From the IMG/VR virus record IMGVR_UViG_3300006641_000010, positions 1 to 40,838 of that record: a DNA stretch of 40,838 nt. The stretch is one strand, 5' to 3'. The notes under the pieces were generated by a model, which searched no databases, had not been told where the DNA came from, and saw only the letters and a program-made list of their open reading frames with translations. Position 1 is the stretch's first letter. Each line of letters starts with the position of its first letter. Both the position numbers and the translations under genes were made by a program. Of this stretch, positions 5,256 to 33,005 are shown piece by piece. This DNA is from a virus.

Positions 5256-5273
5256 ACTAACACATCCAAAGCC

Positions 5274-5477: not shown

Positions 5478-5483
5478 GCGCAC

Positions 5484-5664: not shown

Positions 5665-5672
5665 ACCTGGCG

Positions 5673-8038: not shown

Positions 8039-8072
8039 GCCGCTAATTAGCTACCGCTAGTCCACCAGCGAC

Positions 8073-8105
8073 CCATCCCGTGCCACTCTTGAGCCGCCGG
8101 GATGG
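8073..8105 (+). other. RNA hairpin after exonuclease gene
   Basis: Perfect 8-bp stem CCATCCCG (8073-8080) / CGGGATGG (8098-8105), 17-nt loop, no T tract. The 8039-8252 gap holds this hairpin, CTAG boxes near 8057 and 8179, and the promoter at 8189; I see no gene in it. Confidence 0.45.
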
Positions 8106-8188
8106 CCCGAATACAACACCCGCAAGGGAAATCAGGGCAGGAGCATGCGGCTCCATCGGAATCCCGGCACCCTCTTCGCTAGCCACCC

Positions 8189-8217
8189 TTGACGCCTAGC
8201 GTTGGCTAGCCTATTCT
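8189..8217 (+). promoter_or_regulatory. Promoter with palindromic operator-like spacer, rightward
   Basis: -35 TTGACG (8189-8194), 17-nt spacer CCTAGCGTTGGCTAGCC and -10 TATTCT (8212-8217). The spacer is identical, base for base, to that of the leftward promoter at 2627-2655. It drives the small-gene operon beginning at 8253. Shared spacer identity suggests co-regulation by one phage protein. Confidence 0.8.
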
Positions 8218-8252
8218 CGTGATTACGGGGGCGACCCCACCGCATCCTTCCC

Positions 8253-8510
8253 ATGAACCCTCTCTGCACGGTTCTCCCAGATCTCCCTTCCTCCGCCACG
8301 GACTGGGCTGAGCGCTACCTCTTCAACAGCGCCATCCTTTCCGACTACTGCCACGAGGAAGAACTCGACGATATGCACGCCACCTTCATGGCGGCAGGCA
8401 TCCCCTACACCGTCCAGTTCCGCCCCGGCACCCCCGACCCCGAGCCCTACGACTGGGCCGACGAATGCCTCAGCGCAGCTGATCGCAACTCCTTTGCTTG
8501 CTTCCAGTGA
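8253..8510 (+). CDS. Hypothetical acidic protein, 85 aa
   Basis: First gene after the 8189 promoter. An 85-aa acidic protein (SDYCHEEELDDMHATFMAAG, then YDWADECLSAADR). No known motif; strong acidity and early expression would fit a host-interaction or inhibitor protein, but that is speculation. Its stop overlaps the next gene (GTGA). Confidence 0.7.
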   Translation: MNPLCTVLPDLPSSATDWAERYLFNSAILSDYCHEEELDDMHATFMAAGIPYTVQFRPGTPDPEPYDWADECLSAADRNSFACFQ

Positions 8511-8683
8511 CTAGCCCTAACGAGCAGCAGCTTGCATTCCTGCTGGAGCAAGCCGTCACCAACGACATCCACGAAGAAGACGCCGCCGACTTCCTCGACG
8601 ACCACGGCATCCCCTGCTTTTCCCACAACCGTCAAACCCTCATCACCCTCGCCTACCGCAACGGCTGGAGACCAAACCCATGA
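8507..8683 (+). CDS. Hypothetical acidic protein, 58 aa
   Basis: GTG start overlapping the previous stop (GTGA); 58 aa, acidic middle (TNDIHEEDAADFLDDHGI) and a C-terminal TLAYRNGWRPNP. A TTG three codons earlier is possible. It shares the acidic HEE(E/D)xxD style with the upstream product, so the two may be distant paralogues. No function known. Confidence 0.65.
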   Translation: MTSPNEQQLAFLLEQAVTNDIHEEDAADFLDDHGIPCFSHNRQTLITLAYRNGWRPNP

Positions 8684-8883
8684 CCTCCCCCTCCCTACCT
8701 CCCTTCATCACCCGCACCACCCGCCGCACCTATTCCCGCACCGCACCCCTGCACGCCGTGCCCTCACGTCCGCACCGCAAACCCTCCAAACCCCAATCGT
8801 TCCTTGAGCGTCATGGCGATCTCATTACCTTCCTCTGGACTTGCATCCTCATCGCAGCCCTCGTCTACACCGCCTTCTCTTGA
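8680..8883 (+). CDS. Small single-pass membrane protein, 67 aa
   Basis: ATGA overlap with the previous gene. Basic, Pro-rich N-terminal 45 residues, then one predicted transmembrane helix near the C-terminus (LITFLWTCILIAALVYTAF). Orientation would place the basic part in the cytoplasm. Function unknown. Confidence 0.65.
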   Translation: MTSPSLPPFITRTTRRTYSRTAPLHAVPSRPHRKPSKPQSFLERHGDLITFLWTCILIAALVYTAFS

Positions 8884-9169
8884 ACCGCTGCTAGAAGAAC
8901 TCACCAACCTTGCCATCAGTGAGAAAGCGATCCAAGCCCGACGCCAAGAACTCCTTGACCTATTGGATCAACTGGTGGAAGCGGGTGAGGCAGAGGAGCA
9001 ACTCGCGTGGAACGACTGCAAAATCACTCGCCGTAGCCGCAAGTCCTACACCTATCCCGCTCACATCCTTGAGCAACGCGAGCAGCTCAAGGCATCCGAA
9101 CGACTTTCACTCGCCTTGGGCGAGGCCTCGGTAACCATCAAACACTTCTGGGAAGTCCGCACCGCATGA
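8813..9169 (+). CDS. Hypothetical coiled-coil protein, 118 aa
   Basis: Starts at ATG 8813 (a TTG lies at 8804), overlapping the membrane-protein gene by 71 nt. A coiled-coil helix (LEPLLEELTNLAISEKAIQ, then RRQELLDLLDQLVEAGE) is followed by CKITRRSRKSYTYPAHILEQ, a basic RKxYxY pattern, and ends with HFWEVRTA. The N-terminal 20 residues are Ser/Pro-rich and may not be native. Possibly a nucleic-acid-binding accessory protein. Confidence 0.6.
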   Translation: MAISLPSSGLASSSQPSSTPPSLEPLLEELTNLAISEKAIQARRQELLDLLDQLVEAGEAEEQLAWNDCKITRRSRKSYTYPAHILEQREQLKASERLSLALGEASVTIKHFWEVRTA

Positions 9170-9339
9170 AGACCAAGCTCAAAGCCTCCTCCCTCCCCAT
9201 CACCCTCACCGCCTACCAACGCGCTATCGACGCCGCCGCTCGCACCGTTTCCGGCATCCCCCGCGCTCAACTTGAAGCCATCGTTGCCGCCGCTATCACC
9301 GCCATCGGCAAACCAGACCATGACGACAAAGCGGCCTGA
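9166..9339 (+). CDS. Small hypothetical protein, 57 aa
   Basis: ATGA overlap with the previous gene; 57 aa (MKTKLKASSLPITLTAYQRA, then an Ala/Ile-rich helix QLEAIVAAAITAIG and a polar tail). The helix is only moderately hydrophobic. Overlaps the next gene by 20 nt. No family recognised. Confidence 0.6.
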   Translation: MKTKLKASSLPITLTAYQRAIDAAARTVSGIPRAQLEAIVAAAITAIGKPDHDDKAA

Positions 9340-9496
9340 ATACCAACCCTGTCGCCTCGTCTCCCTCTGCGGTCAATACCTCACCGTCAATGGCACCTTC
9401 TCCGCAGACCCTGCCCGCGCTCTCACCGCCGAGCGCTGGTACATCGAACGACAGCAGCAACGCATCAACACCGCCACCATCATCCTCCGCGCCTAG
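9320..9496 (+). CDS. Small hypothetical protein, 58 aa
   Basis: ATG 9320 gives 58 aa (MTTKRPEYQPCRLVSLCGQY, then an AERWYIERQQQRINT helix). It overlaps the previous gene by 20 nt and the N-terminus of the RusA frame. No function recognised. Confidence 0.6.
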   Translation: MTTKRPEYQPCRLVSLCGQYLTVNGTFSADPARALTAERWYIERQQQRINTATIILRA

Positions 9497-9923
9497 CGCC
9501 ATCACCTTTGATGTGATCGGCATGGAGGCCGCCACGCAAGGCTCCAAACGCGCCATGCCCAACGGCATCATGCTCGAAACCAACAAGCGCCTACGCCCCT
9601 GGCGCTCGCACATCACTGACGCCGCCCTCGCTACCAACTACCCCCTCACCACAGCACCGGTCTCCATCTCCATCACCTTCCGTTTCCTACGACCCAAGGC
9701 TCACTTCAACAAGTCCGGTCTATCCCCTAAAGCACCACTCCACCTAACCTCCAAACACAAAGGCGACATCGACAAGCTCTCCCGTGCCGTGCTTGATGCC
9801 CTCACTGGCACTCTTCTTCACGACGATTCTCAAGTGGTTCAACTATCCGCCCACAAGCGCTACACCACCCCAGAAGAACGTCCCGGTGCCCTCATCACCA
9901 TCATCCCCCTCACGGCAACTTAA
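9390..9923 (+). CDS. rusA: RusA-like Holliday junction resolvase
   Basis: Endonuclease expected to cut branched replication and recombination DNA before packaging. The RusA fold is clear from residue 38: ITFDVIG, a basic W block (RLRPWRSHI), VSISITFRFLRPKAH, then the acidic active site GDIDKLSRAVLDALTG (D126, D128) and DDSQVVQLSAHKRY (D145/D146). ATG 9390 is the only start that retains the first strand, although residues 1-37 are Ser/Pro-rich and overlap the upstream gene by 107 nt. A GTG at 9513 or ATG at 9522 would truncate the fold. Confidence 0.85.
   Translation: MAPSPQTLPALSPPSAGTSNDSSNASTPPPSSSAPSAITFDVIGMEAATQGSKRAMPNGIMLETNKRLRPWRSHITDAALATNYPLTTAPVSISITFRFLRPKAHFNKSGLSPKAPLHLTSKHKGDIDKLSRAVLDALTGTLLHDDSQVVQLSAHKRYTTPEERPGALITIIPLTAT
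9914..9923 (+). promoter_or_regulatory. GGNAASYTAG-type box
   Basis: GGCAACTTAA, 19 nt before the ATG at 9943. It overlaps the last codons of rusA, so chance is not excluded. Confidence 0.4.
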
Positions 9924-9942
9924 GCTAGCCAGCCTTGGCACC

Positions 9943-10257
9943 ATGGAACCGTGGTCCGTCGTCGCTGAATACCCCTACACCGGCGAACCCTTTGGCCTCG
10001 TCTTCAATGACGACTCCACCATGGCTGAAGCTGAATACATCGCTCGACAACTCCTCGCTACCTTCCGCCTCACCGGCCTCTACCTCCCCTCTTCCTCACA
10101 AGACAACCCCGAAGGCAACTACCTCTTCCTCTTCACCATCGAGCCTGAAACCATCCCCCGCATGGGCACCATCTGGGCCTACGGCGTCGACGACGCGGAA
10201 CTCCGCCTGAACGTCCTAGCCTCTGATGGCACGCTCTTCATGCCCTCCCCCGGTTAA
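9943..10257 (+). CDS. Hypothetical protein, 104 aa
   Basis: A 104-aa acidic protein (MEPWSVVAEYPYTGEPFGLV, then EAEYIARQLLATFRL and PRMGTIWAYGVDDAELRLNV). Compact alpha/beta pattern without known motif. Starts after an 19-nt gap containing CTAGC and is followed after 9 nt by the terminase small subunit. Confidence 0.65.
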   Translation: MEPWSVVAEYPYTGEPFGLVFNDDSTMAEAEYIARQLLATFRLTGLYLPSSSQDNPEGNYLFLFTIEPETIPRMGTIWAYGVDDAELRLNVLASDGTLFMPSPG

Positions 10258-10266
10258 ACTCCGGCC

Positions 10267-10716
10267 ATGGCTAAAGAGCGCGGACACTACAAACTCAACG
10301 CCAACTTGATTGAAAAGGCAGCAAGACTTGCTGCTTTGGGTTGGTCTCAGCGCAACATCGCTGAAGCTTGTGGTGTTGATGATTCCACCTTTCGCATGTG
10401 GATCTCTAATGCCGACACTGCGGAGGCCACTGAACTTGAATCCGCGCTTTTAGCGGCTATTCAAGAGGCTGCAGCAGCAGGTGAAGAAGCCTTGGCCGCC
10501 AAAATCGCTAACGGCGACACACGCGACGCTCAATGGCTGCTCACTCACTCCGCTCGCTGGCGTGACCGCTGGTCAGACGCAGCCGCCACACGACGCGAAG
10601 TGCTCAATACCCTCACCACTGTTGTCCAAGTCATTCAGCAGTCCGATCTGACACCTGAGCAGCAAGATCAACTCCTGCTCCGCATGCAGGCGGCTGGTCT
10701 TGGCGCTCTCGCTTGA
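10267..10716 (+). CDS. terS: Terminase small subunit
   Basis: DNA-recognition subunit of the packaging motor. The N-terminus has a helix-turn-helix (KAARLAALGWSQRNIAEACG, VDDSTFRMWI) as in many small terminases, followed by an Ala/Glu helical region for oligomerisation, an RWRDRWSDAA segment and a C-terminal helix (SDLTPEQQDQLLLRMQ). 149 aa is usual. It overlaps the large subunit gene by 17 nt, confirming its identity. Confidence 0.85.
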   Translation: MAKERGHYKLNANLIEKAARLAALGWSQRNIAEACGVDDSTFRMWISNADTAEATELESALLAAIQEAAAAGEEALAAKIANGDTRDAQWLLTHSARWRDRWSDAAATRREVLNTLTTVVQVIQQSDLTPEQQDQLLLRMQAAGLGALA

Positions 10717-12058
10717 TCCCCTCAGCGCAGCACGCGCTCAGATCCAGCTAGGCCGCAGTGCTGGCCCTGTCGTGCGTGACAGCAATGCCCTGCTCGCTCG
10801 CATCTACAGCGACCTGCACCCCAAGCAGCAGGCCTTCATCGACGACACCGATCACAAGATCGTCGCCCTCTGTGCTGGCTACGGCTCCGGCAAAACCCGT
10901 GCCCTAGCCGCTAAAGCCGTCAATCTTGCCATTGCTAATCAGGGCTTCATCGGTTGCGTCATGGAACCAACCGGCCCCCTGATCCGCGACATCTGGCAAA
11001 ACGACTTCGACGACTTTCTGGAGGGCTACGACATCCCCTACACCTTCAGGGCCTCGCCGCTCCCGGAATACATCCTGCACCTACCCGGCGGTGATACCAA
11101 GATTCTGTGCCGTTCGTTTGAGAACTGGACACGCCTCATCGGTCTCAACCTCGCCTGGTGTCTCGCTGACGAGGTGGACACCGTAAACAAGACGCTGGCG
11201 CAAAAGGCATTCACCAAGATCCTCGGCCGCCTTCGCTCCGGTAACACCCGCCAGTTCGCCGCCGCCTCCACACCCGAGGGCTACAGCTGGCTCTACCAGA
11301 ACTTCGGCACCGAGGAAGCCCTGGCCCGTGAGGATCGGCACCTGATCAGGATGCGCACCTACGACAACCCGCATCTGCCGCCGGACTTCATCGAAACCCT
11401 GAAGGCCAACTACGACCCCAGCCTGCTGCTGGCCTACCTGGAAGGGCAATGGGTCAACCTCACCACCGGGCAGGTCTACGACCGCTTCAGCCGCGACAAG
11501 CACGTTCAGCCTGTCACCTGGGATGTGGATGAGCCGATCTTGCTGGGGATCGACTTCAACGTGGGCAATATGTCCGGCATCCTTGCCGTCCGCCGTGGCA
11601 ACACGCTGCACATCTTTGATGAGATCAGCGGTGCCCATGACACTGATGCCATGGGCCAAGAGGTGCGCCGCCGTTACGGCAAAGCCCGCATCCTCGGCTA
11701 CCCCGATGCCTCTGGCGCTGCCCGCAGCACCAACAGCTCCCGCAGCGATGTGGCGATCCTTGAGGCCTACGACATCCACAACATGGCGCCCAAGGCCAAC
11801 CCGCCGGTGCGGGACCGCATCGCAGCGGTGCAAGCGTTGCTGGAGAACGGCAACGGTCATGTGCGCCTGTTTGTGGATCCGCGCTGCAAGCGCACCATCG
11901 AGTGCCTAGAGCTGCAGAGCTACAACGACAAAGGCGATCCCGACAAAAAAGCAGGTTTCGACCACATGAACGACGCACTGGGCTACATCGTTCACCGTTG
12001 CTTCGAGGTGGGCCGGGCCACCAGCGGCAAGGCGGTGCGCGGCGTGCGGCTGTACTGA
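10700..12058 (+). CDS. terL: Terminase large subunit
   Basis: ATPase and nuclease that packages DNA into the prohead. Walker A is AGYGSGKT (about 59-66) and Walker B is AWCLADEVD (about 152-160). A coupling-type segment follows (AAASTPEGYSWLYQNFG). The C-terminal RNase H-like nuclease shows LLGIDFNVGNMSGILAV (first Asp), a GYPDASGAA strand and FDHMNDALGYIVHR (last Asp). 452 aa is normal. The start is TTG 10700 inside terS; GTG 10771 would be the next choice. Confidence 0.93.
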   Translation: MALSLDPLSAARAQIQLGRSAGPVVRDSNALLARIYSDLHPKQQAFIDDTDHKIVALCAGYGSGKTRALAAKAVNLAIANQGFIGCVMEPTGPLIRDIWQNDFDDFLEGYDIPYTFRASPLPEYILHLPGGDTKILCRSFENWTRLIGLNLAWCLADEVDTVNKTLAQKAFTKILGRLRSGNTRQFAAASTPEGYSWLYQNFGTEEALAREDRHLIRMRTYDNPHLPPDFIETLKANYDPSLLLAYLEGQWVNLTTGQVYDRFSRDKHVQPVTWDVDEPILLGIDFNVGNMSGILAVRRGNTLHIFDEISGAHDTDAMGQEVRRRYGKARILGYPDASGAARSTNSSRSDVAILEAYDIHNMAPKANPPVRDRIAAVQALLENGNGHVRLFVDPRCKRTIECLELQSYNDKGDPDKKAGFDHMNDALGYIVHRCFEVGRATSGKAVRGVRLY

Positions 12059-12163
12059 CTTGCGCTAGCCACCGATCATGGGCTAGGCTTCGCTCGGTTA
12101 GTTGAACCCGGCGGCCTCTTCGGACTCCCCGGCGGCTTCTAACCACCCCATTTCATCACTGCC

Positions 12164-12349
12164 ATGACAACCACCCTCGCGTGGGTGGCGGTGATCCTGC
12201 TCTTCCCGCTCATCCTCCTGCTCTGGGCTACTGAGTCCCAGCAGCAGCGCATCCGTCGTCTGCATTCTGCAGGCCTGAGCCAGACCAAGATCGCCAGCCG
12301 CCTCAACCTCTCCCGCTACACAGTTAGGAAAGCTCTAGCCGCTCCGTAA
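12164..12349 (+). CDS. Membrane-anchored helix-turn-helix protein, 61 aa
   Basis: Residues 4-22 (TLAWVAVILLFPLILLLWA) form one transmembrane helix; residues 28-61 (QRIRRLHSAGLSQTKIASRL, then NLSRYTVRKALAAP) form a resolvase-type helix-turn-helix. A DNA-binding domain tethered to the membrane is unusual and may link DNA packaging or transcription to the membrane. It sits between terL and the portal operon, preceded by a 105-nt gap with CTAG boxes at 12065 and 12084. Function inferred only. Confidence 0.75.
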   Translation: MTTTLAWVAVILLFPLILLLWATESQQQRIRRLHSAGLSQTKIASRLNLSRYTVRKALAAP

Positions 12350-12355
12350 GCCACC

Positions 12356-12365
12356 GGAAACCTAG
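12356..12365 (+). promoter_or_regulatory. GGNAASYTAG-type box
   Basis: GGAAACCTAG, 20 nt before the ATG at 12386; intergenic. Confidence 0.55.
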
Positions 12366-12385
12366 CCGTAGAGTTTGCCTCCCTC

Positions 12386-12838
12386 ATGGCCCGTTCTTAC
12401 AAGCGTGACAACAACGGTCGTTTCGCTGGTGGCGGCGGCGGTGGTGGTGGCGGCGGTGGTAAAGGCGGTGGCGGGAAGATGGGTAAAAGTGCCAAGAATG
12501 AGAGCGCACGCGCTAAGTACAAAGAAGCCAGCGGCAAAGCTCGTGAGCTGACTAAAACGGCCAGCAAAGTTGCTAGCAATCCCAAGTCTTCCGCTAAGGA
12601 AAAAGCGTTCTGGAATCGTCAAGCTGGCGGTGCAAAGTCCGGCCTCACTCGGGTTAGCAATAACCTGAGTGGTAAGGGCAAAAAGTCGGCATCCTCTGGG
12701 GTCACCGCTGCCCGAGCTGCTGGTCGCGCCAAAGGTTCTGCCATGGCCGCTAAAGCCACTTCTCGCAATGCCGCTCTTGATGCCAAGGCCGCAGCTTATG
12801 GCGGTGGCAAGGCTCCTTCCCGTCGTCGTCGCAAGTGA
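12386..12838 (+). CDS. Gly/Lys-rich basic protein, 150 aa
   Basis: Starts MARSYKRDNNGRFAGG, followed by an 11-glycine run, then a strongly basic Ala/Lys/Ser region and an RRRRK end, reminiscent of histone-like tails. Proteins beginning with this KRDxxGRFA signature occur in phage head operons, in my memory of cyanophages. It may bind DNA or act as a scaffold accessory. The poly-Gly tract is a GGT/GGC microsatellite prone to length change. Confidence 0.7.
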   Translation: MARSYKRDNNGRFAGGGGGGGGGGGKGGGGKMGKSAKNESARAKYKEASGKARELTKTASKVASNPKSSAKEKAFWNRQAGGAKSGLTRVSNNLSGKGKKSASSGVTAARAAGRAKGSAMAAKATSRNAALDAKAAAYGGGKAPSRRRRK

Positions 12839-12869
12839 TCGGTTGTTGATCGCCCTTACCTGAGCTGCC

Positions 12870-14321
12870 GTGCATACCCTCGCTGCCACCACCAACCTGA
12901 ACCTTGCCTTGACCACCATCAAGGATTTGCAGGTTCATGACCCTGGGATTCCGTGGTTGCGCATGGAGCCGCGCTGGCGGCTCATCGAGCAGCTCAGTCT
13001 TGGCACCCTCGGCATGCAAGCGGCCGGCCGCCGCTACCTGCCGCAGGAACCCAAGGAAGACGACGAGAGCTATCAGGCCCGCCTCGCCCGTTCCGTCTGC
13101 CCTCCATACACCCTGCGCCTAGAGCAGATGCTGGCCGGCATGCTCACCCGCAAGCCGGTGCGGCTGGACAACGTGCCTGACGTGATCCAGGAGCACCTCT
13201 ACGACGTGGATCTGAGCGGTGCAGATCTCAACGTCTACCTGCAGGATCTGGCGCGGAAGTGCATCCGCTACGGCCACGTTGGTGTGCTGGTGGACTTCCC
13301 CCGTGGTGATGAAGGGGATGACACCCCCGTGACCACTTTTGAGCGCCCCTACTGGGTCAGCTACACGCCGCGCGACATCCTCGGCTGGCGCACGGATGTG
13401 GTGAACGGCTCCCAGCAGCTGACGCAGCTACGCCTGCGCGAGCAGGTGGTCGTGCCCTACGGCGAGTTCGGCGAGGAACTGGTGGAGCAGGTGCGCGTGC
13501 TGGAGATCGGCCGCTTCCGTCTCTACCGCAAGCAGGCCTCCAAGAACCGCGACTGGGAGCTGATCTCCGAAGGCACCACCACCCTTGACCGGATTCCCTT
13601 TGCGGTGGCCTATGCCAACCGCACCGGCATCCTCGAATCCACCCCGCCTCTAGAAGAGGTGGCCTGGCTGAACCTCAAGGCCTACCGCTGCGAATCCGAT
13701 CAGGCCAACATCCTCCACGTCGCCGCAGTCCCCCGTTACAACCTCTTCGGTGTGCCTGCCGAAGTCGACGAGCTAGAGGCTGGCCCCAACTCGGCCATGG
13801 CCTTCCCGGTGGATGCCCGCGCTGAGTTCACTGAACCCACCGGCACCAGCTATCAAGCCCGCTTCACTGAGCTGGACCGCATCGAAAAGCAAATCGCGGA
13901 ACTAGGTCTGGCTGCTGTGCTCGGTCAGAACATGACCAACCAAGCTGCCGAATCCAAGGCGATTGAACGCAGCCAAGGCGACGCCGCTCTCCAGGCGGTG
14001 GCCATCGGCCTGCAGAACCTGATCGACAGCTGCCTGCAGTTCCACGCCGCCTACCTGAACCTGCCCACCTCCGGCAGCAGCATGGTGAACAACGACTTCG
14101 TGGCCCGCACGCTGGAGCCCGCCCACGTCGCAGAGCTGATCAAGCTGCGCATGAACGGCGACATCACCCAAGAAACGCTGCTGATCCAGCTCGCTGACGG
14201 TGAGTGGCTCTACGACGATTTCAATGTGGACGCCGAGATTGAAGCCACACAAGCGCAGCAAGCACAACGCTTGGATGCACAAGCCGCACAGCTTGATGCC
14301 AACCTCCAGCAGTTGAATTGA
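12870..14321 (+). CDS. Portal protein (DUF4055)
   Basis: Dodecameric portal at one capsid vertex through which DNA is packaged. The DUF4055 pattern is visible: YLPQEPKEDDESYQARLARS, LEQMLAGMLTRKPVRL, ARKCIRYGHVGVLVDFP, YWVSYTPRDILGWR, RIPFAVAYANRTG, an AWLNLKAYRCESDQANILHV helix, and the long C-terminal AAESKAIERSQGDAAL helix. 483 aa is typical. The start is a GTG, with no clear ribosome site. It follows terL and precedes scaffold and capsid genes, as expected. Confidence 0.9.
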   Translation: MHTLAATTNLNLALTTIKDLQVHDPGIPWLRMEPRWRLIEQLSLGTLGMQAAGRRYLPQEPKEDDESYQARLARSVCPPYTLRLEQMLAGMLTRKPVRLDNVPDVIQEHLYDVDLSGADLNVYLQDLARKCIRYGHVGVLVDFPRGDEGDDTPVTTFERPYWVSYTPRDILGWRTDVVNGSQQLTQLRLREQVVVPYGEFGEELVEQVRVLEIGRFRLYRKQASKNRDWELISEGTTTLDRIPFAVAYANRTGILESTPPLEEVAWLNLKAYRCESDQANILHVAAVPRYNLFGVPAEVDELEAGPNSAMAFPVDARAEFTEPTGTSYQARFTELDRIEKQIAELGLAAVLGQNMTNQAAESKAIERSQGDAALQAVAIGLQNLIDSCLQFHAAYLNLPTSGSSMVNNDFVARTLEPAHVAELIKLRMNGDITQETLLIQLADGEWLYDDFNVDAEIEATQAQQAQRLDAQAAQLDANLQQLN

Positions 14322-14346
14322 GCCGCTAGCGAACGCTAGTTATACT
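14318..14346 (+). promoter_or_regulatory. Sigma70-type promoter with palindromic spacer
   Basis: -35 TTGAGC (14318-14323), 17-nt spacer CGCTAGCGAACGCTAGT and -10 TATACT (14341-14346). The spacer holds a perfect palindrome CTAGCG-AA-CGCTAG, the idealised form of the boxes in the promoters at 2627 and 8189. Drives scaffold and major capsid. Confidence 0.75.
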
Positions 14347-14373
14347 TTCAGCGATACATCGTTTGTTGCTGTT

Positions 14374-15063
14374 TTGTCTGACGATCTCGATCAGCAAGAG
14401 TCACCGAGTCAATCCTCGGTTGATGCTTCTGCGCTGCAGTCGAAGATTGAGTCCTTGATCCAGCACAACCAAAAGCTGGAGCGCCAACTCGGCCAGGCCA
14501 AAGACAAGCTGCGGGCACTGCCGGATGGTGTGGACGTTGATGGGCTGATCAAGTTCAAGCAGGAACACGAGCAGGCGCAGCTGGAGCAACAGGGCAAATA
14601 CGCCGAAGCACGGCAAGCCCTCGAAGCGCAGTTCCGTGAGCGCGAATCACAACTGCAGCAGCGGCTGGATGCCTTGGAAGCGGAGAACCGCGAGCTGAAA
14701 CTGATCGGCCCTGCTGTCGCCGCATTGGCGGACACGGTGCATGACCCCGATGAGGTGATTCGCCTCAAGCTCAAGCCTGAGCAGATTGAACGCGAAGCTG
14801 ATGGCACCGTCGTGGTTGTGGATGGCTATCAGCGCACGCCCATCAACGACTGGGCACGCACCAGCCTGCCGCAATACCGCCTCAAGGCACCCAAGCCCCA
14901 AGGCACTGGCGCACCGGTCGGCCGTAGTGGTGGCGGTGGTGAGCTACCGGCTGGCAGCAAGAACCCCTTTAGTCGGGAGCACTACAACCTCACCGAACAG
15001 GCTCGCATTTACAAGACCGATCCTGAGTTGTACGCACGCCTTAAAGCCGCTGCTGGTAAGTAA
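14374..15063 (+). CDS. Capsid scaffolding protein
   Basis: A 229-aa acidic protein with a long coiled coil (about 20-120, e.g. SKIESLIQHNQKLERQLGQ and ALEAQFRERESQLQQRLDAL) and a basic C-terminal segment (NPFSREHYNLTEQARIYK). It lies directly between portal and major capsid genes, where scaffolds for prohead assembly occur. The start codon is TTG 14374. No protease is encoded nearby, so the scaffold probably exits or is processed otherwise. Confidence 0.85.
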   Translation: MSDDLDQQESPSQSSVDASALQSKIESLIQHNQKLERQLGQAKDKLRALPDGVDVDGLIKFKQEHEQAQLEQQGKYAEARQALEAQFRERESQLQQRLDALEAENRELKLIGPAVAALADTVHDPDEVIRLKLKPEQIEREADGTVVVVDGYQRTPINDWARTSLPQYRLKAPKPQGTGAPVGRSGGGGELPAGSKNPFSREHYNLTEQARIYKTDPELYARLKAAAGK

Positions 15064-15154
15064 CACGCAGCGGAATACTTACAGGTAACGGGTGGCTGTT
15101 GGCGCCCTGAATGGCTGTTGGCCGCCTTTGTAAACCCCCAACCTGGAGAACACC

Positions 15155-16207
15155 ATGGCTGCCACTGTGCGGTCTGATGTGGTCATCCCCGAGATTTTTA
15201 CCCCCTATCTCGAAGAGGCCACTACCCTTCAAAACGCTTTCATCGCTTCTGGCGTTGTTCAGCCCCTCGCTGCCCTGAACGGTGGTGACGGTGGCGACTA
15301 CGTGAACGTGCCCTTTTGGGATGCCAACCTGAGCGGCGATGCTGAAGTCCTGAGCGACTCCGGCAGCCTGACTCCTGGCAACATCACCGCCGACAAGCAG
15401 CGCGGTGTGTTCCTGCATCGCGGCCGTGCCTGGGGCGTGCGTGAGCTGGCGAAGCTGGCATCTGGGGATGACCCGATGCAGGCCATCGGCAACAAAGTTG
15501 CTTCCTACATCGCCTTCCAACAGCAAAAGGATCTGCTGGCCACCCTCGGTGGTGTGTTCGGTGCTGTCGGTTCCGCCAACACTGGCGCTGCCTTCATCGA
15601 CCTGACCTTTGACGCCGGTGGTTCGGGTGAAACTCCCCTCACCGCCCGTCATGTGGCCAAGGCTCGCGCACTGCTGGGCGATCAGGGCGACAAGCTCTCC
15701 GCCATCTGCATGCACTCCGCCGTCTACTACGACTTGGTGGAGCGCCGCGCCATTGACTACGTGACCGCTGCTGAAGCTCGCGCTACCGCTGCTGCTTCCA
15801 ACGCTGCTACCCCCGATGTGTTCGGTGGTTCTGTGGCTGCTGCGTTCACCGCTGATGCCAGCGTGCCCTTCTTCATGGGCATGCGCGTGATCGTCAGCGA
15901 CGATGTGCAGACCTCTGGTTCTGGCTCCAGCAAGAAGTACGCCACCTACTTCTTCACCCCCGGCGCTGTGGCCTCTGGCGAACAGCAGGGTCTGAAGACC
16001 GAAGTGGATCGCGACATCCTCGCGCTGGCTGACTACATGGCCGTGTCCTGGCACAACTGCTACCACCCCATGGGTTCGCAGTATCAAACTGCCGGCGGTG
16101 CCAACCCCAGCCAGGCCACTCTCGCCACCATCACCAACTGGACGAAGGTGTACGAGACCAAGAACATCGGTATCGTTCGCGGCACCGTCACTTCCAACTT
16201 CGACTGA
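15155..16207 (+). CDS. Major capsid protein
   Basis: A 350-aa HK97-fold-type coat protein. The N-terminus VIPEIFTPYLEEATTLQNAF, then VNVPFWDANLSGDAEVLSDS, RGVFLHRGRAWGVRELAKL, ASYIAFQQQKDLLATLGGVF and the late ALADYMAVSWHNCYHPMG are typical of coat proteins paired with DUF4055 portals. CTGGAG upstream is a reasonable ribosome site. The codon choice is strongly biased to C/G ends, as expected for the most highly expressed protein. Confidence 0.93.
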   Translation: MAATVRSDVVIPEIFTPYLEEATTLQNAFIASGVVQPLAALNGGDGGDYVNVPFWDANLSGDAEVLSDSGSLTPGNITADKQRGVFLHRGRAWGVRELAKLASGDDPMQAIGNKVASYIAFQQQKDLLATLGGVFGAVGSANTGAAFIDLTFDAGGSGETPLTARHVAKARALLGDQGDKLSAICMHSAVYYDLVERRAIDYVTAAEARATAAASNAATPDVFGGSVAAAFTADASVPFFMGMRVIVSDDVQTSGSGSSKKYATYFFTPGAVASGEQQGLKTEVDRDILALADYMAVSWHNCYHPMGSQYQTAGGANPSQATLATITNWTKVYETKNIGIVRGTVTSNFD

Positions 16208-16216
16208 GGTTGAACG

Positions 16217-16369
16217 ATGGGATTAACAGGTTTCAACCTGGCCCGTCGTGAAGAAGAGGAGGCTGCTCCGGCAGCCTCTGTTCCTTCCGAGCCAGCAGTG
16301 TGTGAGGCCCCGGTGCCTCAAGCAGAAACACCCAAGCGTGGTCGCAAGAAGGCTGAGGAGGAATCCTGA
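16217..16369 (+). CDS. Small charged protein after capsid gene, 50 aa
   Basis: MGLTGFNLARREEEEAAPAA, then Pro/Glu-rich linker and a PKRGRKKAEEES tail. Starts 9 nt after the capsid stop and overlaps the next start (TGATG). Low-complexity charged proteins of this size often follow capsid genes. Function unknown. Confidence 0.7.
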   Translation: MGLTGFNLARREEEEAAPAASVPSEPAVCEAPVPQAETPKRGRKKAEEES

Positions 16370-16626
16370 TGGCCGTCTTCCCTTCCACTGAACAGGTTGG
16401 TGGTGCTGGTCAGGTTGGCTTTGAGCTGATCACTGACACCAGTGCTCACACCGGGCGGTTCTTCCGCCTCTATGCCCTCGAAGCCACCGTGATCAACACG
16501 GCCACGGTGCAGAACGCTTCCGGCAACACCTTCTCCGCTGTGCCGATTCCGGCCGGTGGTGCCATTGATGGGTTGTTCACTTCGGTGACGCTCACCAGCG
16601 GCAAGGTCGTGGCCTACAAGCTCTGA
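16369..16626 (+). CDS. Small beta-rich head protein, 85 aa
   Basis: An 85-aa beta-strand-rich, neutral protein (VGFELITDTSAHTGRFFRLY, then AIDGLFTSVTLTSGKVVAYKL). Its position directly after the capsid operon start and its composition suggest a capsid decoration or spike protein. Coupled on both sides by TGATG overlaps. Confidence 0.65.
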   Translation: MAVFPSTEQVGGAGQVGFELITDTSAHTGRFFRLYALEATVINTATVQNASGNTFSAVPIPAGGAIDGLFTSVTLTSGKVVAYKL

Positions 16627-16766
16627 TGGCGACCAAAGCAAAGGCGGGCAGTAGTGCTCGCCTTTTTCAGTCTCCGCCCAAGCGCACGCGCCAAGGGCAG
16701 GGAACCAATAGCAAAAGAAAGCGTCGGCATGGGCGCAAGCTTCTAAGGGGCCAAGGCCGTGGCTGA
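16626..16766 (+). CDS. Small basic protein with TRQG and RGQG motifs, 46 aa
   Basis: MATKAKAGSSARLFQSPPKR, TRQGQGTNSKRKRRHGRK, LLRGQGRG. Starts by TGATG overlap and overlaps the next gene's GTG by 8 nt. I recall similar TRQG ... RGQG micro-proteins in several cyanophage groups, so it is likely conserved and expressed. Nucleic-acid binding is likely from charge; its role is unknown. Confidence 0.7.
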   Translation: MATKAKAGSSARLFQSPPKRTRQGQGTNSKRKRRHGRKLLRGQGRG

Positions 16767-18732
16767 TCTCTCCCAGCAGATTGAGGTGTTCCTCCGCAAT
16801 GCGTTGCGGCAGCGCAAGCTGGAAGATCGCCTGATCCGTCAGGCACTGCGTGATCTGCGCAGCACCTTGGCTGCGGTGGAGAGAGTAGTGGGTAGCTCTG
16901 GTGTGCTGGCGGTTGGCATCAACCGTGAGCGCACCATTGCCGCAATCACCACTGCGGTGGCCAAGAGCGTGCAGGACTCCTTTGGCGTGCCGCAGCTGGC
17001 GGCCTTGCAGGACGCCTTGACCCCCTTTGTGGAGCAGCAGCTGGACTATGCACGGCGGCTGGTCTCCATGGCCGGCGGGAACCTCACGGCAGAAGGCGCC
17101 GGTCAGCTCAGCCAGGTGCAGGTGCAGCGCCTCGTGAACGATGCCGTCGTGGGTGGCAAAACCCTCAGCACGCAGCTCACCCAAGCTTTGCCGGCCACCG
17201 TTGCCGACCGCGTAGAGCGCTTCATCCGCCTCGGGCTTTCGGACATTGGTGGTGAGACGTTTGCCACCTATCAGAACGCCGTGGTGCGCGTCACCGAGAA
17301 CAACGTCGAAGCCATCGTGCGCACCGCCGTCAACGAGGTGGGCAGTGCCGCACAGCAGGCGATCTACCAATACGAAGCCGACCCGGACTGGCTGGATGCC
17401 GAAGGCTTGGTCTGGACTGCACTGCTGGATTCGGCGGTCTGCCCGATCTGCCTGGCCTTGGATGGCAAGCGCTTTCCGCCGGACTACCAGAAGGTCAGCC
17501 CGCACCTGCAGTGCGTCCTAGGCGACACCGAGATCGAGCCCGGCATCATTGCCGCCGCCATGCGGAGCCACTACACCGGCAACGTCGTCACCATTCGCAC
17601 GGATGGCGACCGGGTGCTTTCGGTTACCGAGAACCATCCAGTGCTCACCAGCCACGGATGGAAGCCGGCCAAGCTGCTCCAAGAGGGCGATCAGCTCATT
17701 GGTCGACAGGTCAAAAGGGCACCGGTTATCAACCCAGAACTCGACCAGCGCCCAGTCACGGCTGAACAGCTGTTTACGCTTTTGGCTGAGCAATCGTCGA
17801 TGGAAGGGCGTTGCGTGCCAGCCTCCGCCATGGATTTCCACGGCGATGGGGCCGGGATGCACAGCAATGTCGACATTGCATGTGTGAACTGGGAACTGCT
17901 GCTCAACGCTGAAGCCGTGTGCCCGCAGCACTTGCGCGATGCGCTGTTCGTTGTGGCTAATGCGCAGCTGGCGGCGGTAGACGACCTCGGCCCGCTTGAT
18001 GCGCTCCTGCTCGCTATGCACGCGACCGCGACAGGCTTCATTGGCGGCAGCGACTTGGTTGCGACGCTGCTCGGCGGTCATTTGGCTCCACTTGAGGGCC
18101 TCGGCCTCGCTTTGGCTGCGCGGCGTGACCCCCGCTTTGATGAGCCGTTGGCGTATGCAGGTCCGGGACACGCCAAGTTGAAGAGCGATCTGGTTTTCGC
18201 TCATGCCGGATCGGTAGAGGTTGACCACAGCGGCGTAGTCAATGACGTTGCGATTGGAACGCAAGGGCACGCCGGCACGAAGCAGACAGTTGCGGATGGC
18301 CTTGGCACTGACGCCAAGCTCCTGCGAGAGCTTGTTAGCGCTAATCCCGCTGAGGTAGCGATTGACAACGTGGTCAGCGTCCAAATTGAGGCGAGGCATA
18401 GCGTTCCCGTGTATGACTTCTCTACTCTTAGTGGAGCGTATTTTGCTTCTGGCATTTTAACTCACAACTGCCGCTGCAGCCTCGTGCCGTGGAAATGGCG
18501 CAACGAGGACATGCGCGACCCCAAGGGCAACCCTGTGGCACCCCGTCGCCTTGCTGATGGTGATGGCCCCGAGCAACCGCTGGATTTCAAGGTGGCCGCC
18601 AAGCAGTGGGTCAAAGACAACCCCCAGACCGCTCAGGCCATCTTTGGCAAGAAGCTGGGCCAGCGCCTCGTGGACGGTGAGATCAGCTTCGATAAGGCCG
18701 TGAAGCAGTGGGCCGCTCCAAAGGCAAGTTAG
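16759..18732 (+). CDS. Mu gpF-like head morphogenesis protein interrupted by an intein
   Basis: The extein is a minor head protein of the Mu gpF/SPP1 gp7 family: a helical N-terminus, ETFATYQNAVVRVTENNVEA, VNEVGSAAQQAIYQYEAD, then the zinc-type C-terminal motif CPICLALDGKRFPPD and PHLQ/CRCSLVPW. This last motif, normally HPxCRC, is split by an in-frame insertion of 319 residues with intein hallmarks (see 17512-18468). After splicing the head protein would be 338 aa, normal for the family. GTG start overlapping the previous gene. Such proteins bind the portal vertex and enter the virion. Confidence 0.9.
   Translation: MADLSQQIEVFLRNALRQRKLEDRLIRQALRDLRSTLAAVERVVGSSGVLAVGINRERTIAAITTAVAKSVQDSFGVPQLAALQDALTPFVEQQLDYARRLVSMAGGNLTAEGAGQLSQVQVQRLVNDAVVGGKTLSTQLTQALPATVADRVERFIRLGLSDIGGETFATYQNAVVRVTENNVEAIVRTAVNEVGSAAQQAIYQYEADPDWLDAEGLVWTALLDSAVCPICLALDGKRFPPDYQKVSPHLQCVLGDTEIEPGIIAAAMRSHYTGNVVTIRTDGDRVLSVTENHPVLTSHGWKPAKLLQEGDQLIGRQVKRAPVINPELDQRPVTAEQLFTLLAEQSSMEGRCVPASAMDFHGDGAGMHSNVDIACVNWELLLNAEAVCPQHLRDALFVVANAQLAAVDDLGPLDALLLAMHATATGFIGGSDLVATLLGGHLAPLEGLGLALAARRDPRFDEPLAYAGPGHAKLKSDLVFAHAGSVEVDHSGVVNDVAIGTQGHAGTKQTVADGLGTDAKLLRELVSANPAEVAIDNVVSVQIEARHSVPVYDFSTLSGAYFASGILTHNCRCSLVPWKWRNEDMRDPKGNPVAPRRLADGDGPEQPLDFKVAAKQWVKDNPQTAQAIFGKKLGQRLVDGEISFDKAVKQWAAPKAS
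17512..18468 (+). mobile_element. Intein in gpF-like gene (residues 252-570)
   Basis: Starts at Cys252 with CVLGDTEIEPG (block A), has VTENHPVLTSHGWKPAKLL with the T-x-x-H motif (block B), and ends VPVYDFSTLSGAYFASGI then LTHN before Cys571 (blocks F and G plus the +1 nucleophile). All class-1 splicing residues are present, so excision should be active. No endonuclease motif is visible in the sense frame: the roughly 220 residues between blocks B and F are the reverse reading of an endonuclease gene on the other strand. The last 70 bases are AT-richer than the flanks, a sign of transfer. Confidence 0.92.
17518..18399 (-). CDS. Antisense homing endonuclease inside the intein (HTH + Vsr/DUF559-like)
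   Basis: A 293-aa protein on the strand opposite the intein. Two tandem helix-turn-helix units: residues 8-45 (RYLSGISANKLSQELGVSAK) and 54-92 (NLYRSGMSENQIALQLGVSR, then TCIRQRLIKAGVTPRS). A PD-(D/E)XK nuclease follows at about 148-242: helix HNEQRIAQVLRAHGFSVEQQ, then CNVDIAV (D177), AVEIHGGGWH (E188, H195) and QKRKQLFSRDWALVEFW. This matches Vsr/DUF559-type homing endonucleases. The tail after about residue 245 is antisense to the intein N-terminal splicing block and may be functionless. Codons align in register with the sense codons, so the gene can contain no TTA, CTA or TCA. A weak minus promoter (TTGTGA, 16-17 nt, AAAT-rich) lies at 18467-18439. Confidence 0.85.
   Translation of the reverse strand: MPRLNLDADHVVNRYLSGISANKLSQELGVSAKAIRNCLLRAGVPLRSNRNVIDYAAVVNLYRSGMSENQIALQLGVSRTCIRQRLIKAGVTPRSQSEAEALKWSQMTAEQRRNQVAAANEACRGRVHSEQERIKRAEVVYRRQLRISHNEQRIAQVLRAHGFSVEQQFPVHTCNVDIAVHPGPIAVEIHGGGWHATPFHRRLLSQKRKQLFSRDWALVEFWVDNRCPFDLSTNELIALLEQLGRLPSVAGEHWMVLGNRKHPVAIRANGDDVAGVVAPHGGGNDAGLDLGVA
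18723..18732 (+). promoter_or_regulatory. GGNAASYTAG-type box
   Basis: GGCAAGTTAG, 18 nt before the ATG at 18751; it includes the stop codon of the head gene, so partial coincidence is possible. Confidence 0.4.
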
Positions 18733-18750
18733 TGCTAAGGGTGCGTTGCT

Positions 18751-19308
18751 ATGACCGTCACTGTTGTTGCCACTGTCGGCTCGGCTTCGGCCAATAGCTA
18801 CATCAGCGTGGCCACTGGTGATGATCTCGCCAACCTCTACCTCGGCACGCTGAATTGGACTTCAGCCAGCACCGATAACAAAGGGCGGGCGCTGATCATG
18901 GCGACCCGCTACCTCGATGAGCTGCGCTACATCGGCGAGAAGGCCTCCACCACCCAAGCGCTGGCCTGGCCCCGCAGTGATGCAGCCTGCGGTGATTGGA
19001 CCTTCACCACCAGCGAGATTCCGCAGCCGATCAAGCAAGCCACCTTTGATCTGGCTGAGGCTCTGCTGGGTGACAGCACTCTGCTGACCGTTGCCGGCGC
19101 TGGCAGCACTGAGCTGATCCCTGGCATCCCCAATGCCAACCTCAAGCGTGCCCGCGTGGACGTGATTGATGTGGAGTTCAACAGCGTGCAGCAAGCCGAA
19201 AGCAAAAACGCTTTGAACGTCGTGCCACACCTCAAGCAGGTGCTCGGTTGTCTGTGCTTAAGCAAGGCATCATCTTCTGTTGGGGCTGTCCAAGTCTTGC
19301 GAAGTTAG
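18751..19308 (+). CDS. Head-tail connector (DnaT-like phage adaptor)
   Basis: A 185-aa protein with the pattern of the phage head-completion adaptors often labelled DnaT-like: ANSYISVATGDDLANLYLG, a KGRALIMATRYLDELRYIG helix, ALAWPRSDAACGDWT, and EIPQPIKQATFDLAEALL. These proteins dock beneath the portal; they are not primosomal DnaT. The C-terminal 25 residues are Cys/Ser-rich and atypical. Confidence 0.75.
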   Translation: MTVTVVATVGSASANSYISVATGDDLANLYLGTLNWTSASTDNKGRALIMATRYLDELRYIGEKASTTQALAWPRSDAACGDWTFTTSEIPQPIKQATFDLAEALLGDSTLLTVAGAGSTELIPGIPNANLKRARVDVIDVEFNSVQQAESKNALNVVPHLKQVLGCLCLSKASSSVGAVQVLRS

Positions 19309-19317
19309 ACTTGACCT

Positions 19318-19896
19318 ATGCGCATCGCTGAAGGCCAACTTTCATTCTTCAGCACTCCGGCTGAACCGGAGAAAAAGCGCGTTGAGCATCATCTCGCCAA
19401 GCCGTTCACCAGAGAAGAGCAGCGGCGCTTTGGTCGGATGTATGCCGAGAACATCGGCCTGATCCGCATGTTCGGCGGGAAGCTGTGCCGCAAGTATCGG
19501 CACTGCATGGCCACCGAAGACATCTTCTCCTGCGTGGACATCGCCTTTCTCAAGGCGTGCCGTGCGCATGACCCAGAACGCGGGAAGCTCAGCACCATCT
19601 TCTGGACGTTTGCCCAAGGGGAGTGCCTGCACTTCCTGCGTGGCAGCAACTGGACAATCAAGGCCACGCACAAAGCGCGTCTGTTGGGCAATAGCGCTAG
19701 GAAGCTGATGGCACTCGGCTGGACCTCGCTAGCGGTCTGCAAGGAGCTGAGCTGCACCAAGACCGAGCTGAAGGATGCGCTGCTGGCCACCGCTGGCGTC
19801 GCCCATGACGTAAAGGGCTTTGATCTGCATGTCTGCCCTCGACCCACACCGTGGGAGGTGCTGGAAGCTGAAGAAGATCGTTTAGCGGCAAGTTAG
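19318..19896 (+). CDS. Diverged sigma-70-like factor within the morphogenesis operon
   Basis: A 192-aa protein with a sigma region-2-like core: YAENIGLIRMFGGKLCRKYR, ATEDIFSCVDIAFLKACRAH, ERGKLSTIFWTFAQGECLHF, LRGSNWTIKATHKARLLG. The FSTYAxxWI-like helix is replaced by LSTIFWTFAQGEC, followed by a putative -10 contact helix. A second helical part (LMALGWTSLAVCKELSCTKT, ELKDALLA) may be a region 3/4-like helix-turn-helix. At 192 aa it is ECF-sized. Starts 9 nt after the connector gene and precedes the tail tube, so it is expressed with structural genes. Binding to host RNA polymerase is inferred. Confidence 0.75.
   Translation: MRIAEGQLSFFSTPAEPEKKRVEHHLAKPFTREEQRRFGRMYAENIGLIRMFGGKLCRKYRHCMATEDIFSCVDIAFLKACRAHDPERGKLSTIFWTFAQGECLHFLRGSNWTIKATHKARLLGNSARKLMALGWTSLAVCKELSCTKTELKDALLATAGVAHDVKGFDLHVCPRPTPWEVLEAEEDRLAAS
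19887..19896 (+). promoter_or_regulatory. GGNAASYTAG-type box
   Basis: GGCAAGTTAG, 23 nt before the tail tube ATG at 19920; includes the upstream stop codon. Confidence 0.4.
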
Positions 19897-19919
19897 GGCT
19901 ACAAGCCACAGGAACGATC

Positions 19920-20399
19920 ATGGCCACCGGTGCCTTCTTCGCGGCCCTTGGGTATCGCTTCTATGTGAAGGCTGGCACCACGGCCTCCACAAACCCAACC
20001 GCTTCTACTGGGATGACCGAGATTCTCGGTCTGACGAACGCAGGTATTCAGGGCTCCTCCACCACCACGGAAGTGCTGGACTACGGCAGCACTCTGGGTT
20101 ATGCAGCCAGCCTGGTGACCGGGCAGAGCTACACGATCCCAATGGCGATGAACCTGAACCTTAACGATGCGGGGTACGCCATCTTGCGTCAGGCCGCACG
20201 CGATGCAGCAACCGGTGTGACCGTGGAGTGGTATCGGGAGTCGCCTGAGATGAGTTCCACCGGCAGCCCTGAGTACAACAGCGGCGTGGCCTTCGTGACC
20301 GACTTCTCCGAAGACATCCAGGCTGGCAACGTGGCCAGTGTGTCTTTCACCCTGACCGGTTATGGCGCCCCATCTTGGGTGGCTGAGACCAACACCTGA
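19920..20399 (+). CDS. Major tail tube protein
   Basis: A 159-aa beta-rich protein (FYVKAGTTASTNPTASTGMT, TNAGIQGSSTTTEVLDYGST, then VSFTLTGYGAPSWVAET) with the typical tube-protein order: N-terminal strand, a loop with the ITNAG/VDYG pattern and a final FTLTG strand. A strong terminator follows directly, as expected for a highly expressed gene ahead of the inverted pair. Confidence 0.8.
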   Translation: MATGAFFAALGYRFYVKAGTTASTNPTASTGMTEILGLTNAGIQGSSTTTEVLDYGSTLGYAASLVTGQSYTIPMAMNLNLNDAGYAILRQAARDAATGVTVEWYRESPEMSSTGSPEYNSGVAFVTDFSEDIQAGNVASVSFTLTGYGAPSWVAETNT

Positions 20400-20459: not shown

Positions 20460-20906
20460 TTAGAGGCTCATGCCGCTCAGCTTGCGCCACTGATCTGCGA
20501 AGTAGGTATCGAGCGGTGCATTCTCTAGAGCCGGCTTGATCCAGTTGCGCCCTGGCACCAGCGTGCCCTTGCTGGTGGTGTAGCCGGTGAGGATCAGCGG
20601 GGCATAGGCAAACCCGCCTTTGCTCTTGGCATCCCACGTAAAGGTGATCGTGGTGCGGCCATCAAAGCTGCGGCGCTGAGAGCGCAGGAACCCTCTCAGA
20701 TCCACGATGTCGCGGGGGCTGCTGACGGTGGCGCCATTGCGCCGTTTGGTTTCCCGAGGCCAGCCGAACTGCGGCGATTGGATCTCAGCCTTGAGCTGCT
20801 TGTCCAGCACCGTCTGGTAGGTGCCCAAGATCTGCGGCACCCGCAGCTTCAGTTGATTGGCATTCCAGCCGGTGAGGCGAAACGAAGCACGGACCTGAAC
20901 CGCCAT
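20460..20906 (-). CDS. HK97 gp10-like head-tail/tail completion protein (inverted)
   Basis: A 148-aa basic protein (MAVQVRASFRLTGWNANQLK, QSPQFGWPRETKRRNG, IVDLRGFLRSQRRSF, and late YAPLILTGYTTSKG, GRNWIKPALE). The helix-then-basic-loop-then-RNWIKPAL pattern resembles HK97 gp10-type tail completion proteins that lie between head adaptors and tail tube. It is encoded on the minus strand inside a plus-strand operon and is coupled to the upstream minus gene by a one-base overlap at 20906. Confidence 0.65.
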   Translation of the reverse strand: MAVQVRASFRLTGWNANQLKLRVPQILGTYQTVLDKQLKAEIQSPQFGWPRETKRRNGATVSSPRDIVDLRGFLRSQRRSFDGRTTITFTWDAKSKGGFAYAPLILTGYTTSKGTLVPGRNWIKPALENAPLDTYFADQWRKLSGMSL

Positions 20907-21301
20907 CAGCCCTGCACGTAGCGGGCCAAGCGGATCTTGTCGCCCAGCACCTGCTGCAACGTGCTGCCGATCAGGCCGGTGCTGCCGTAGGGAAAGCGGC
21001 CGTTGATCACCTCACACTCAATGGCACCTTGGCCGGCGAAGTTCAGCGTGCCGGTGATGCCGGGTTTGATGCGGGCATCCAATGCCTGCGGGCTGACGGC
21101 ATAGCCCTCATAGGTCTCCACGTCCGTATCAACGCCAGGAAAACCCGAACTGTTGGTGCCGGCCTGTCGCAGGTACAAGCTGACGGTGACCGCTTCTGTG
21201 GCCGGTGCAATGTTCCCGGTAACAGGATCAGTCATGGTGCCAACCGTGGGCACGGTGAAGACAGCCGTGGCGTTGGCGAGAGCAGCGAGAGCGCTTGTCA
21301 T
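20906..21301 (-). CDS. Head-tail joining protein (inverted)
   Basis: A 131-aa beta-rich protein (VTVSLYLRQAGTNSSGFPGV, QALDARIKPGITGTLNFAGQ, FPYGSTGLIGSTLQQVLGDK). The size, strand-rich pattern and coupling to the gp10-like gene fit a head-closure (stopper) type protein. Read divergently from the tape measure gene. On its strand the box GGGAACCTAG lies only 3 nt before the ATG, so the true start may be further in. Confidence 0.6.
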   Translation of the reverse strand: MTSALAALANATAVFTVPTVGTMTDPVTGNIAPATEAVTVSLYLRQAGTNSSGFPGVDTDVETYEGYAVSPQALDARIKPGITGTLNFAGQGAIECEVINGRFPYGSTGLIGSTLQQVLGDKIRLARYVQG

Positions 21302-21304
21302 GGC

Positions 21305-21314
21305 CTAGGTTCCC
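21305..21314 (-). promoter_or_regulatory. GGNAASYTAG-type box, minus orientation
   Basis: Minus-strand GGGAACCTAG pointing at the minus gene ending at 20906. Forms a divergent pair with the plus box at 21324. Confidence 0.5.
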
Positions 21315-21323: not shown

Positions 21324-21333
21324 GGCAACCTAA
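21324..21333 (+). promoter_or_regulatory. GGNAASYTAG-type box
   Basis: GGCAACCTAA, 20 nt before the GTG of the tape measure at 21354. Together with the minus box it forms an inverted repeat (TAGGTT / AACCTA). Confidence 0.55.
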
Positions 21334-28194: not shown

Positions 28195-28204
28195 GGCAAC
28201 CTAG
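28195..28204 (+). promoter_or_regulatory. GGNAASYTAG-type box
   Basis: GGCAACCTAG, 18 nt before the ATG at 28223; fully intergenic. Confidence 0.55.
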
Positions 28205-32995: not shown

Positions 32996-33005
32996 GGAAA
33001 CCTAG
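32996..33005 (+). promoter_or_regulatory. GGNAASYTAG-type box
   Basis: GGAAACCTAG right after the upstream TGA, 27 nt before the GTG at 33033. Confidence 0.5.

Follow-up and report, generated by a model that had tools for sequence, protein, structure and literature searches.

Why does a phage carry a second sigma-like gene in the middle of its morphogenesis operon? The window that we analysed, the whole 40,838-nucleotide stretch of the IMG/VR virus record IMGVR_UViG_3300006641_000010, holds such a gene at 19318-19896 (+), with an ATG start and a product of 192 aa. An earlier note on this DNA had put it between a head-tail connector and a tail tube gene and far from the other sigma, and both placements hold: it is flanked by the head-tail adaptor Ad1 (18751-19308, PHROG_477) upstream and the tail tube gene (19920-20399) downstream, and the full-length sigma is located at 39734-40648 (-). 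We consider it probable, judging from sequence comparison and predicted fold, that the small gene encodes a late sigma factor that would work like gp55 of T4, tethered to the host beta clamp and coupling late transcription to replication.

The position is a stable property of the family, as a search in related phages proposed by the same note could show. IMG/VR scans gave more than 70 loci with the small sigma family and 53 distinct nucleotide sequences at the same genomic position; in all examined contigs the gene lies between Ad1 and tail tube and never next to terL. The order sigma, tail tube, two inverted genes, tape measure is kept in 45/45 loci that extend over the sigma, stopper and tape measure genes, and Ad1 stands upstream in all 45 except one contig that starts at the sigma gene. 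The cultured relatives by capsid protein (53-61% identity) are KBS-S-2A, S-H1, MED4-184 and MED4-117, in none of which the small sigma was found despite the same head module. Based on these capsid relatives, which grow on Synechococcus/Prochlorococcus, the phage probably belongs to the viruses of picocyanobacteria; a scan of genome contigs for a prophage or host link returned only an irrelevant Variovorax fragment.

Several further features of the window deserve mention in their own right. Its ends (1-632 and 39734-40838) are joined in relatives, where the dCTP deaminase lies directly beside the full-length sigma, which makes it probable that the record holds a nearly complete genome, circularly permuted. 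A serine recombinase (3345-4766, -) and a tyrosine integrase (36623-37516, +) are both present in this one phage, and an Rfam match to sRNA-Xcc1 (RF02221, 55.6 bits) is found at 8096-8176 (+) of this cyanophage window. The SPP1 gp7-like head protein gene (16759-18732) holds a 319-aa intein (17512-18468, +), antisense to which runs an ORF of 293 aa (17518-18399, -) with an HTH and an MTES_1575-like endonuclease. Both frames are conserved (56-73% identity) in several other phages, and most relatives have an intein-free allele; the region reads as a homing endonuclease gene that overlaps its intein on the opposite strand.

Identity and domain make-up of the small protein

The sigma region 2-like core that the earlier note had described is borne out by Pfam, PHROG, PDB profiles and the predicted fold alike. 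PF04542 (sigma-70 region 2) is matched by 16/17 family members with a best E-value of 2.2e-5, the window copy itself reaching E 0.0012, which is under Pfam's curated cut-off, and sigma families of PHROG are matched at 4.4e-9 and 2.6e-6. Against PDB chains, the family profile finds RpoH (2.7e-5, residues 52-179) and also SigE and FliA. The AlphaFold (AF2) model has a mean pLDDT of 75, with 87-94 across most of residues 31-100, and the best 50 PDB rows of a Foldseek search with this model are all sigma factors or sigma chains of RNA polymerase (prob 0.80-1.00), at modest whole-chain E-values (best 1.1e-3). The comparison with sigma families that the note had suggested as a check thus brought up no unrelated fold among these best 50. 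The helical core covers residues 32-113 (19411-19656, +), with the PF04542 match at residues 56-113, and the region-2 domain of SigE (8b3z) superposes on the model at 2.0 A with a TM of 0.78 (target). It is followed by region 3.0/3-like helices in residues 114-160 (19657-19797, +; helices 118-132, 137-143 and 148-157), which fall within the RpoH alignment and contain the invariant residues H118 and R121.

Region 4 of sigma factors reads the -35 box and contacts the beta flap. Pfam gives no match to this region in the window copy at a threshold as loose as E<=10 and none across the 17 family members at E<=1, and the same Pfam library detected region 4 in the full-length sigma of the window as a positive control. 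ECF sigma factors are built from regions 2 and 4; the earlier description as "ECF-sized" is therefore right about the length and wrong about the architecture, and membership in the ECF group was rejected because region 4 is absent and region 3-like helices are present. By profile and predicted structure, the small protein is a member of the sigma-70 family with regions 2 and 3 and without region 4. In a tree of sigma factors the family is strongly united; the connections from group to group depend on long branches, and we draw nothing from them.

The N-terminal tail and the predicted clamp contact

In front of the core, the model shows a disordered N-tail of low pLDDT that is little conserved outside one pentapeptide. 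This pentapeptide, QLSFF in the window (residues 7-11; 19336-19350, +), follows the pattern Q[LM]x[LFM][FL] in 53/53 distinct sequences: Q stands at the first position, L or M at the second, L, F or M at the fourth and F or L at the fifth in all 53, and the third varies freely (S, D, L, C, Q, E, A and others). Ahead of the pentapeptide, the residues are wholly different from clade to clade (MRIAEG-, MSASTL-, MALLTD-, MAPLTL-, VAKRSRD-, MEPSS-), and behind it lies a flexible, weakly conserved linker of mostly low pLDDT and high entropy (residues 12-30; 19351-19407, +). Accordingly, mean entropy is 0.47 bits at the four motif anchors versus 1.48 bits over the next 20 columns. Proteins that bind the bacterial sliding clamp (DnaN) share the consensus QL(S/D)LF, generally QxxLF (PMC12309361), of which positions 1, 4 and 5 weigh most (PMC12309361, PMC3716654, PMC9690074). 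In sequence comparison the N-tail carries a pentapeptide of this QL(S/D)LF/QxxLF type, with QLSFF, QLSFL and QLLLF as variants that deviate slightly from the strict consensus. We infer that this is a consensus beta-clamp-binding pentapeptide of the bacterial kind that would bind the clamp, bearing in mind that a short linear motif may also be kept on other grounds.

Near the ends of the other called window proteins no canonical QLxLF-type motif is present, and the same scan of protein termini yielded no convincing gp33-like partner. A bacterial-type beta clamp domain (PF02768) was found neither in the window nor in 8 relatives, so that the partner would be the host DnaN. As separate observations on cultured relatives, S-H1 has a DNA polymerase III beta clamp gene of its own (18187-19236) beside the terminase, and the C-terminus of the KBS-S-2A full-length sigma (7779-8708, -), ...AMLQLPLIP, is similar to a clamp motif of the hexapeptide type.

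A second group of sigma proteins allows an instructive comparison. The small-sigma family profile also matches the sigma of S-CRES1 (1.1e-10; tblastn to this group 3e-4), one of the "type III" sigmas of cyanosiphophages (P-SS2 ORF003, S-CBS2 gp77, S-CRES1 gp20), and the sigmas of S-CRES1/2/3 and S-CBS2 are homologous to the small sigma over regions 2-3, with no clear region 4 by eye. Unlike the small sigma, these proteins are encoded after terL, and their clamp-like motif is C-terminal: every complete copy seen from S-CRES1/2/3 and S-CBS2 ends in QGSLF or QPSLF, where the residue after Q is G or P and only the loose QxxLF form is matched. The rpoS annotation of S-CBS2 (about 301-1033 of the locus) ends early: the rest of the conserved C-terminus, QGSLF included, is encoded in the +1 frame, and the annotated protein is thus truncated by a frameshift or an error in sequencing. 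In P-SS2, the sigma homologue (213 aa) has the motif at neither end; hence not every sigma of this type would contact the clamp.

P-SS2, which has the sigma and the promoters and no clamp motif, also speaks for an alternative in which the protein is a late sigma reading GGnAAsYTA and the QLxLF motif serves another end, be it the binding of host DnaN so that host replication slows down or contact with some other partner through a conserved helix, without any coupling of late transcription to replication. Phage proteins that target DnaN and halt host replication are known. However, a host-shutoff protein would be expected early and not in a late operon, and a tether that stands in for region 4 would predict the motif on sigmas lacking this region, as is seen in two groups, at the N-terminus in one and the C-terminus in the other. 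We regard this alternative as unlikely and continue with a clamp-tethered late sigma.

The late promoter-like element and its probable reader

The late genes share a promoter-like element, GGCAA(C/G)(C/T)TA(G/A), or in a looser form GGnAA(C/G)(C/T)TA(G/A). The pattern GGNAASYTA has 12 sites in the window against 1.9 expected, a number that 0/100 shuffles reach; all lie from 9914 rightwards, with none in the early part, and 11/12 are found 5-36 nt ahead of a start codon on the same strand, counting the starts at 37549 and 39536, which belong to small ORFs read from sequence. Within the structural genes, GGCAAGTTA precedes Ad1 (18723-18731, +; 41/51 relatives) and, overlapping the stop codon of the sigma gene, the tail tube gene (19887-19895, +; 44/46 relatives). 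GGCAACCTA lies upstream of the tape measure gene (21324-21332, +; 17/20) and of gene 28223 (28195-28203, +; 8/9), GGCAACTTA upstream of gene 9943 (9914-9922, +; 9/9) and gene 33912 (33868-33876, +) as well as 19 nt ahead of the small ORF starting at 37549 (37521-37529, +). GGAAACCTA is located upstream of gene 12386 (12356-12364, +), where conservation across relatives was compared, and of gene 33033 (32996-33004, +). On the other strand, GGGAACCTA precedes the inverted stopper gene at 20906-21301 (-) (21306-21314, -; 26/37), whose transcript is probably leaderless, and a conserved 54-aa ORF at 39372-39536 (-) (39559-39567, -). The status of the remaining match, GGCAAGCTA at 39373-39381 (-), is uncertain, since it has no downstream gene and precedes a terminator-like hairpin. 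The element before the portal gene is kept in 16/23 relatives. In several cases the upstream gene has its stop codon inside the element, hence the recurrent C-terminal ...AS*.

Two observations on gene arrangement belong here. The 54-aa ORF lies downstream of the full-length sigma and is present in 6/6 relatives carrying that sigma. In all relatives with coverage, two head-tail connector-like genes (20460-21301, -) are inverted within the rightward late operon, and this pair has its own divergent late promoter element: in the alignment of relatives, GGNAACCTA faces both ways in the divergent region between inverted gene and tape measure.

The geometry of the element was derived from 85 non-redundant sites with an exact core match, in which the core is conserved by construction and only the flanks are unbiased. 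From -60 to -2 these flanks carry no signal (max 0.24 bits), and an A-rich start region lies 13-15 nt after the first motif position. We rejected a hidden -35 box, or one of flexible spacing, as the best hexamer within -32..-8 occurs in 27/85 sites versus 28/85 in a far-upstream control region, and a generic sigma-70 promoter scan of positions 1-20000 gave sites not above shuffles. The nine motif positions can be aligned with the extended -10 TGnTATAAT such that both share the G at -14 and the A at -11, which would put the transcription start about 6-7 nt downstream of the element. Because this is an extended -10 geometry without a -35, a sigma made of regions 2 and 3 could read this promoter class.

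A reading of the element as a signal for translation or processing, or as an operator for a DNA-binding protein, could draw on its rather uniform spacing of 20-25 nt from nearby start codons. Yet in front of the inverted stopper gene most relatives have just 4-5 nt between the element and the ATG, which is too close for a translation signal of fixed distance and fits a leaderless transcript. The element is also absent across relatives ahead of operon-internal genes, among them terL, gp10 and 24281, and its length equals that of TGnTATAAT. We leave only a small chance to such a signal, and treat the element as a putative promoter.

If it is a promoter, which sigma reads it? The full-length sigma (39734-40648, -; regions 1.2, 2, 3 and 4 by Pfam) stands at the end of the leftward early operon, adjacent to the dCTP deaminase in relatives, and is a probable early or middle sigma. 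All 8/8 tested genomes with the small sigma have 10-18 element sites each, compared to 1-3 in a reversed-pattern control. The four cultured relatives without it have 5, 2, 7 and 8 sites, close to the shuffled expectations of 3.1, 2.2 and 5.9 where computed. Element counts therefore track the small sigma and not the full-length sigma, which indicates that the element follows the former. Both sigma proteins occur in the same phage, and one may imagine that the full-length sigma, or one from the host, reads the late elements, with the small protein as an accessory or anti-sigma factor. Against this, KBS-S-2A has a full-length sigma and no enrichment of the element, three contigs of 45-47 kb, possibly incomplete, have 13-18 sites and no full-length sigma match, and no -35 element is offered to a sigma that bears region 4. 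An assignment of the element to the full-length sigma is contradicted by these genomes, and the accessory or anti-sigma role appears very improbable to us; the full-length sigma or a DNA-binding regulator could still contribute at the motif. The small protein is hence kept as the candidate reader.

Comparable late elements accompany the terL-adjacent sigmas. S-CRES1 has 13 forward GGNANNCTAG sites, 11/13 of which lie 24-33 nt before annotated starts (binomial p ~1e-17). For P-SS2, GGnAnnCTAG is found upstream of late genes in 6/7 sites of the stretch examined (p ~2e-10), a pattern that genome-wide is not enriched over the reversed control. The authors of the P-SS2 genome described a group 3 sigma with no regulon assigned and, grouped with dcd and ssb, the gene of a second sigma (PMC2784084), much as for the full-length sigma of the window.

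Taken with the location of the full-length sigma in the early operon, the co-occurrence of the late-operon small sigma with a -35-less element favours the transcription cascade that the earlier note had proposed over its other suggestion, a sigma fold recruited for an unrelated role. That the protein is a head-tail structural component with a chance likeness to region 2 is hardly credible: its place inside the morphogenesis operon would suit this, but all top fold and profile matches are sigma factors, and the gene is missing from the cultured relatives that share this head module.

Proposed late transcription and known systems

In the mechanism that we propose, the full-length, early-encoded sigma would act upstream of the small sigma, the first molecules of which may be supplied by read-through or by the full-length sigma. 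The small sigma would bind the host core RNA polymerase via region 2 and open GGnAAsYTA promoters, with region 3.0 recognising the G at -14 and region 2.4 the -10. Its N-tail QLSFF would dock on the host DnaN ring and hold the sigma near DNA, and clamps left on replicated phage DNA would deliver the polymerase to the late promoters, replacing the missing region 4. As copying of the phage DNA leaves more and more clamps behind, transcription of the late genes would increase along with replication. What the analysis shows is the sequence of the protein, its predicted fold, the conservation of the motif and the distribution of the element; each binding event and the coupling are inferences from these.

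The closest functional model is gp55 of T4, which combines a region-2 homology domain and recognition of a -10-like element with a clamp motif for gp45 on a linker of about 21 residues (PMC7892883, PMC2988020). Both proteins are small, have a region-2 core without region 4 and are linked to late-gene control, and both share a clamp-type motif on a flexible tail, predicted in our case, and late promoters with a -10-like element only, defined here in silico. In contrast to gp55, the motif is N-terminal and of the bacterial DnaN type, and region 3-like helices are retained. The promoters differ as well (GGCAACYTAG here, TATAAATA in T4), as do the phages, an integrase-bearing cyanosiphophage versus T4-like myoviruses, and the gp45/gp33 system has no counterpart among the clamp domains and terminal motifs searched in the window. 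Up to E<=1, the profile search against PDB brought up no gp55 chain; with this homology test negative, we describe the small sigma as gp55-like in its probable mode of action and not as a gp55 family member.

By sequence and fold, the closest solved relatives are FliA, RpoH and SigB. These factors carry region 4, read -35 elements and have no clamp motif, whereas the small sigma is without region 4, has a clamp-type motif and acts, by our prediction, at elements without a -35. ECF factors are similar in length and differ in their regions, as described above.

In the literature searched, mostly without subscription journals and preprints, we found no prior report of a clamp-tethered late sigma in cyanophages. 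Reviews describe the late transcription of T4, with the clamp as a mobile enhancer, as unique to T4-related phages or markedly different (PMC2988020). The wider claim, that replication-coupled late transcription through a clamp-tethered sigma occurs outside T4-like phages, namely in cyanosiphophages that use the host DnaN, tether their sigma by the N-terminus in one group and by the C-terminus in another, and read a new -35-less promoter class GGnAnnYTAG, is one that we favour with moderate confidence. Several carriers of the related group (S-CRES1, S-CBS2, P-SS2) are cultured, and much of this is testable now. If true, it would be a second, apparently independent case of such a system, borrowing the host clamp, and would give the cyanosiphophages a class of late promoters, the regulon of their "type III" sigma having stood unassigned since 2009 (PMC2784084). 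It would represent a compact, -10-only transcription system with few parts, and tethering to the replisome would emerge as a general means of substituting for sigma region 4 and of timing late genes.
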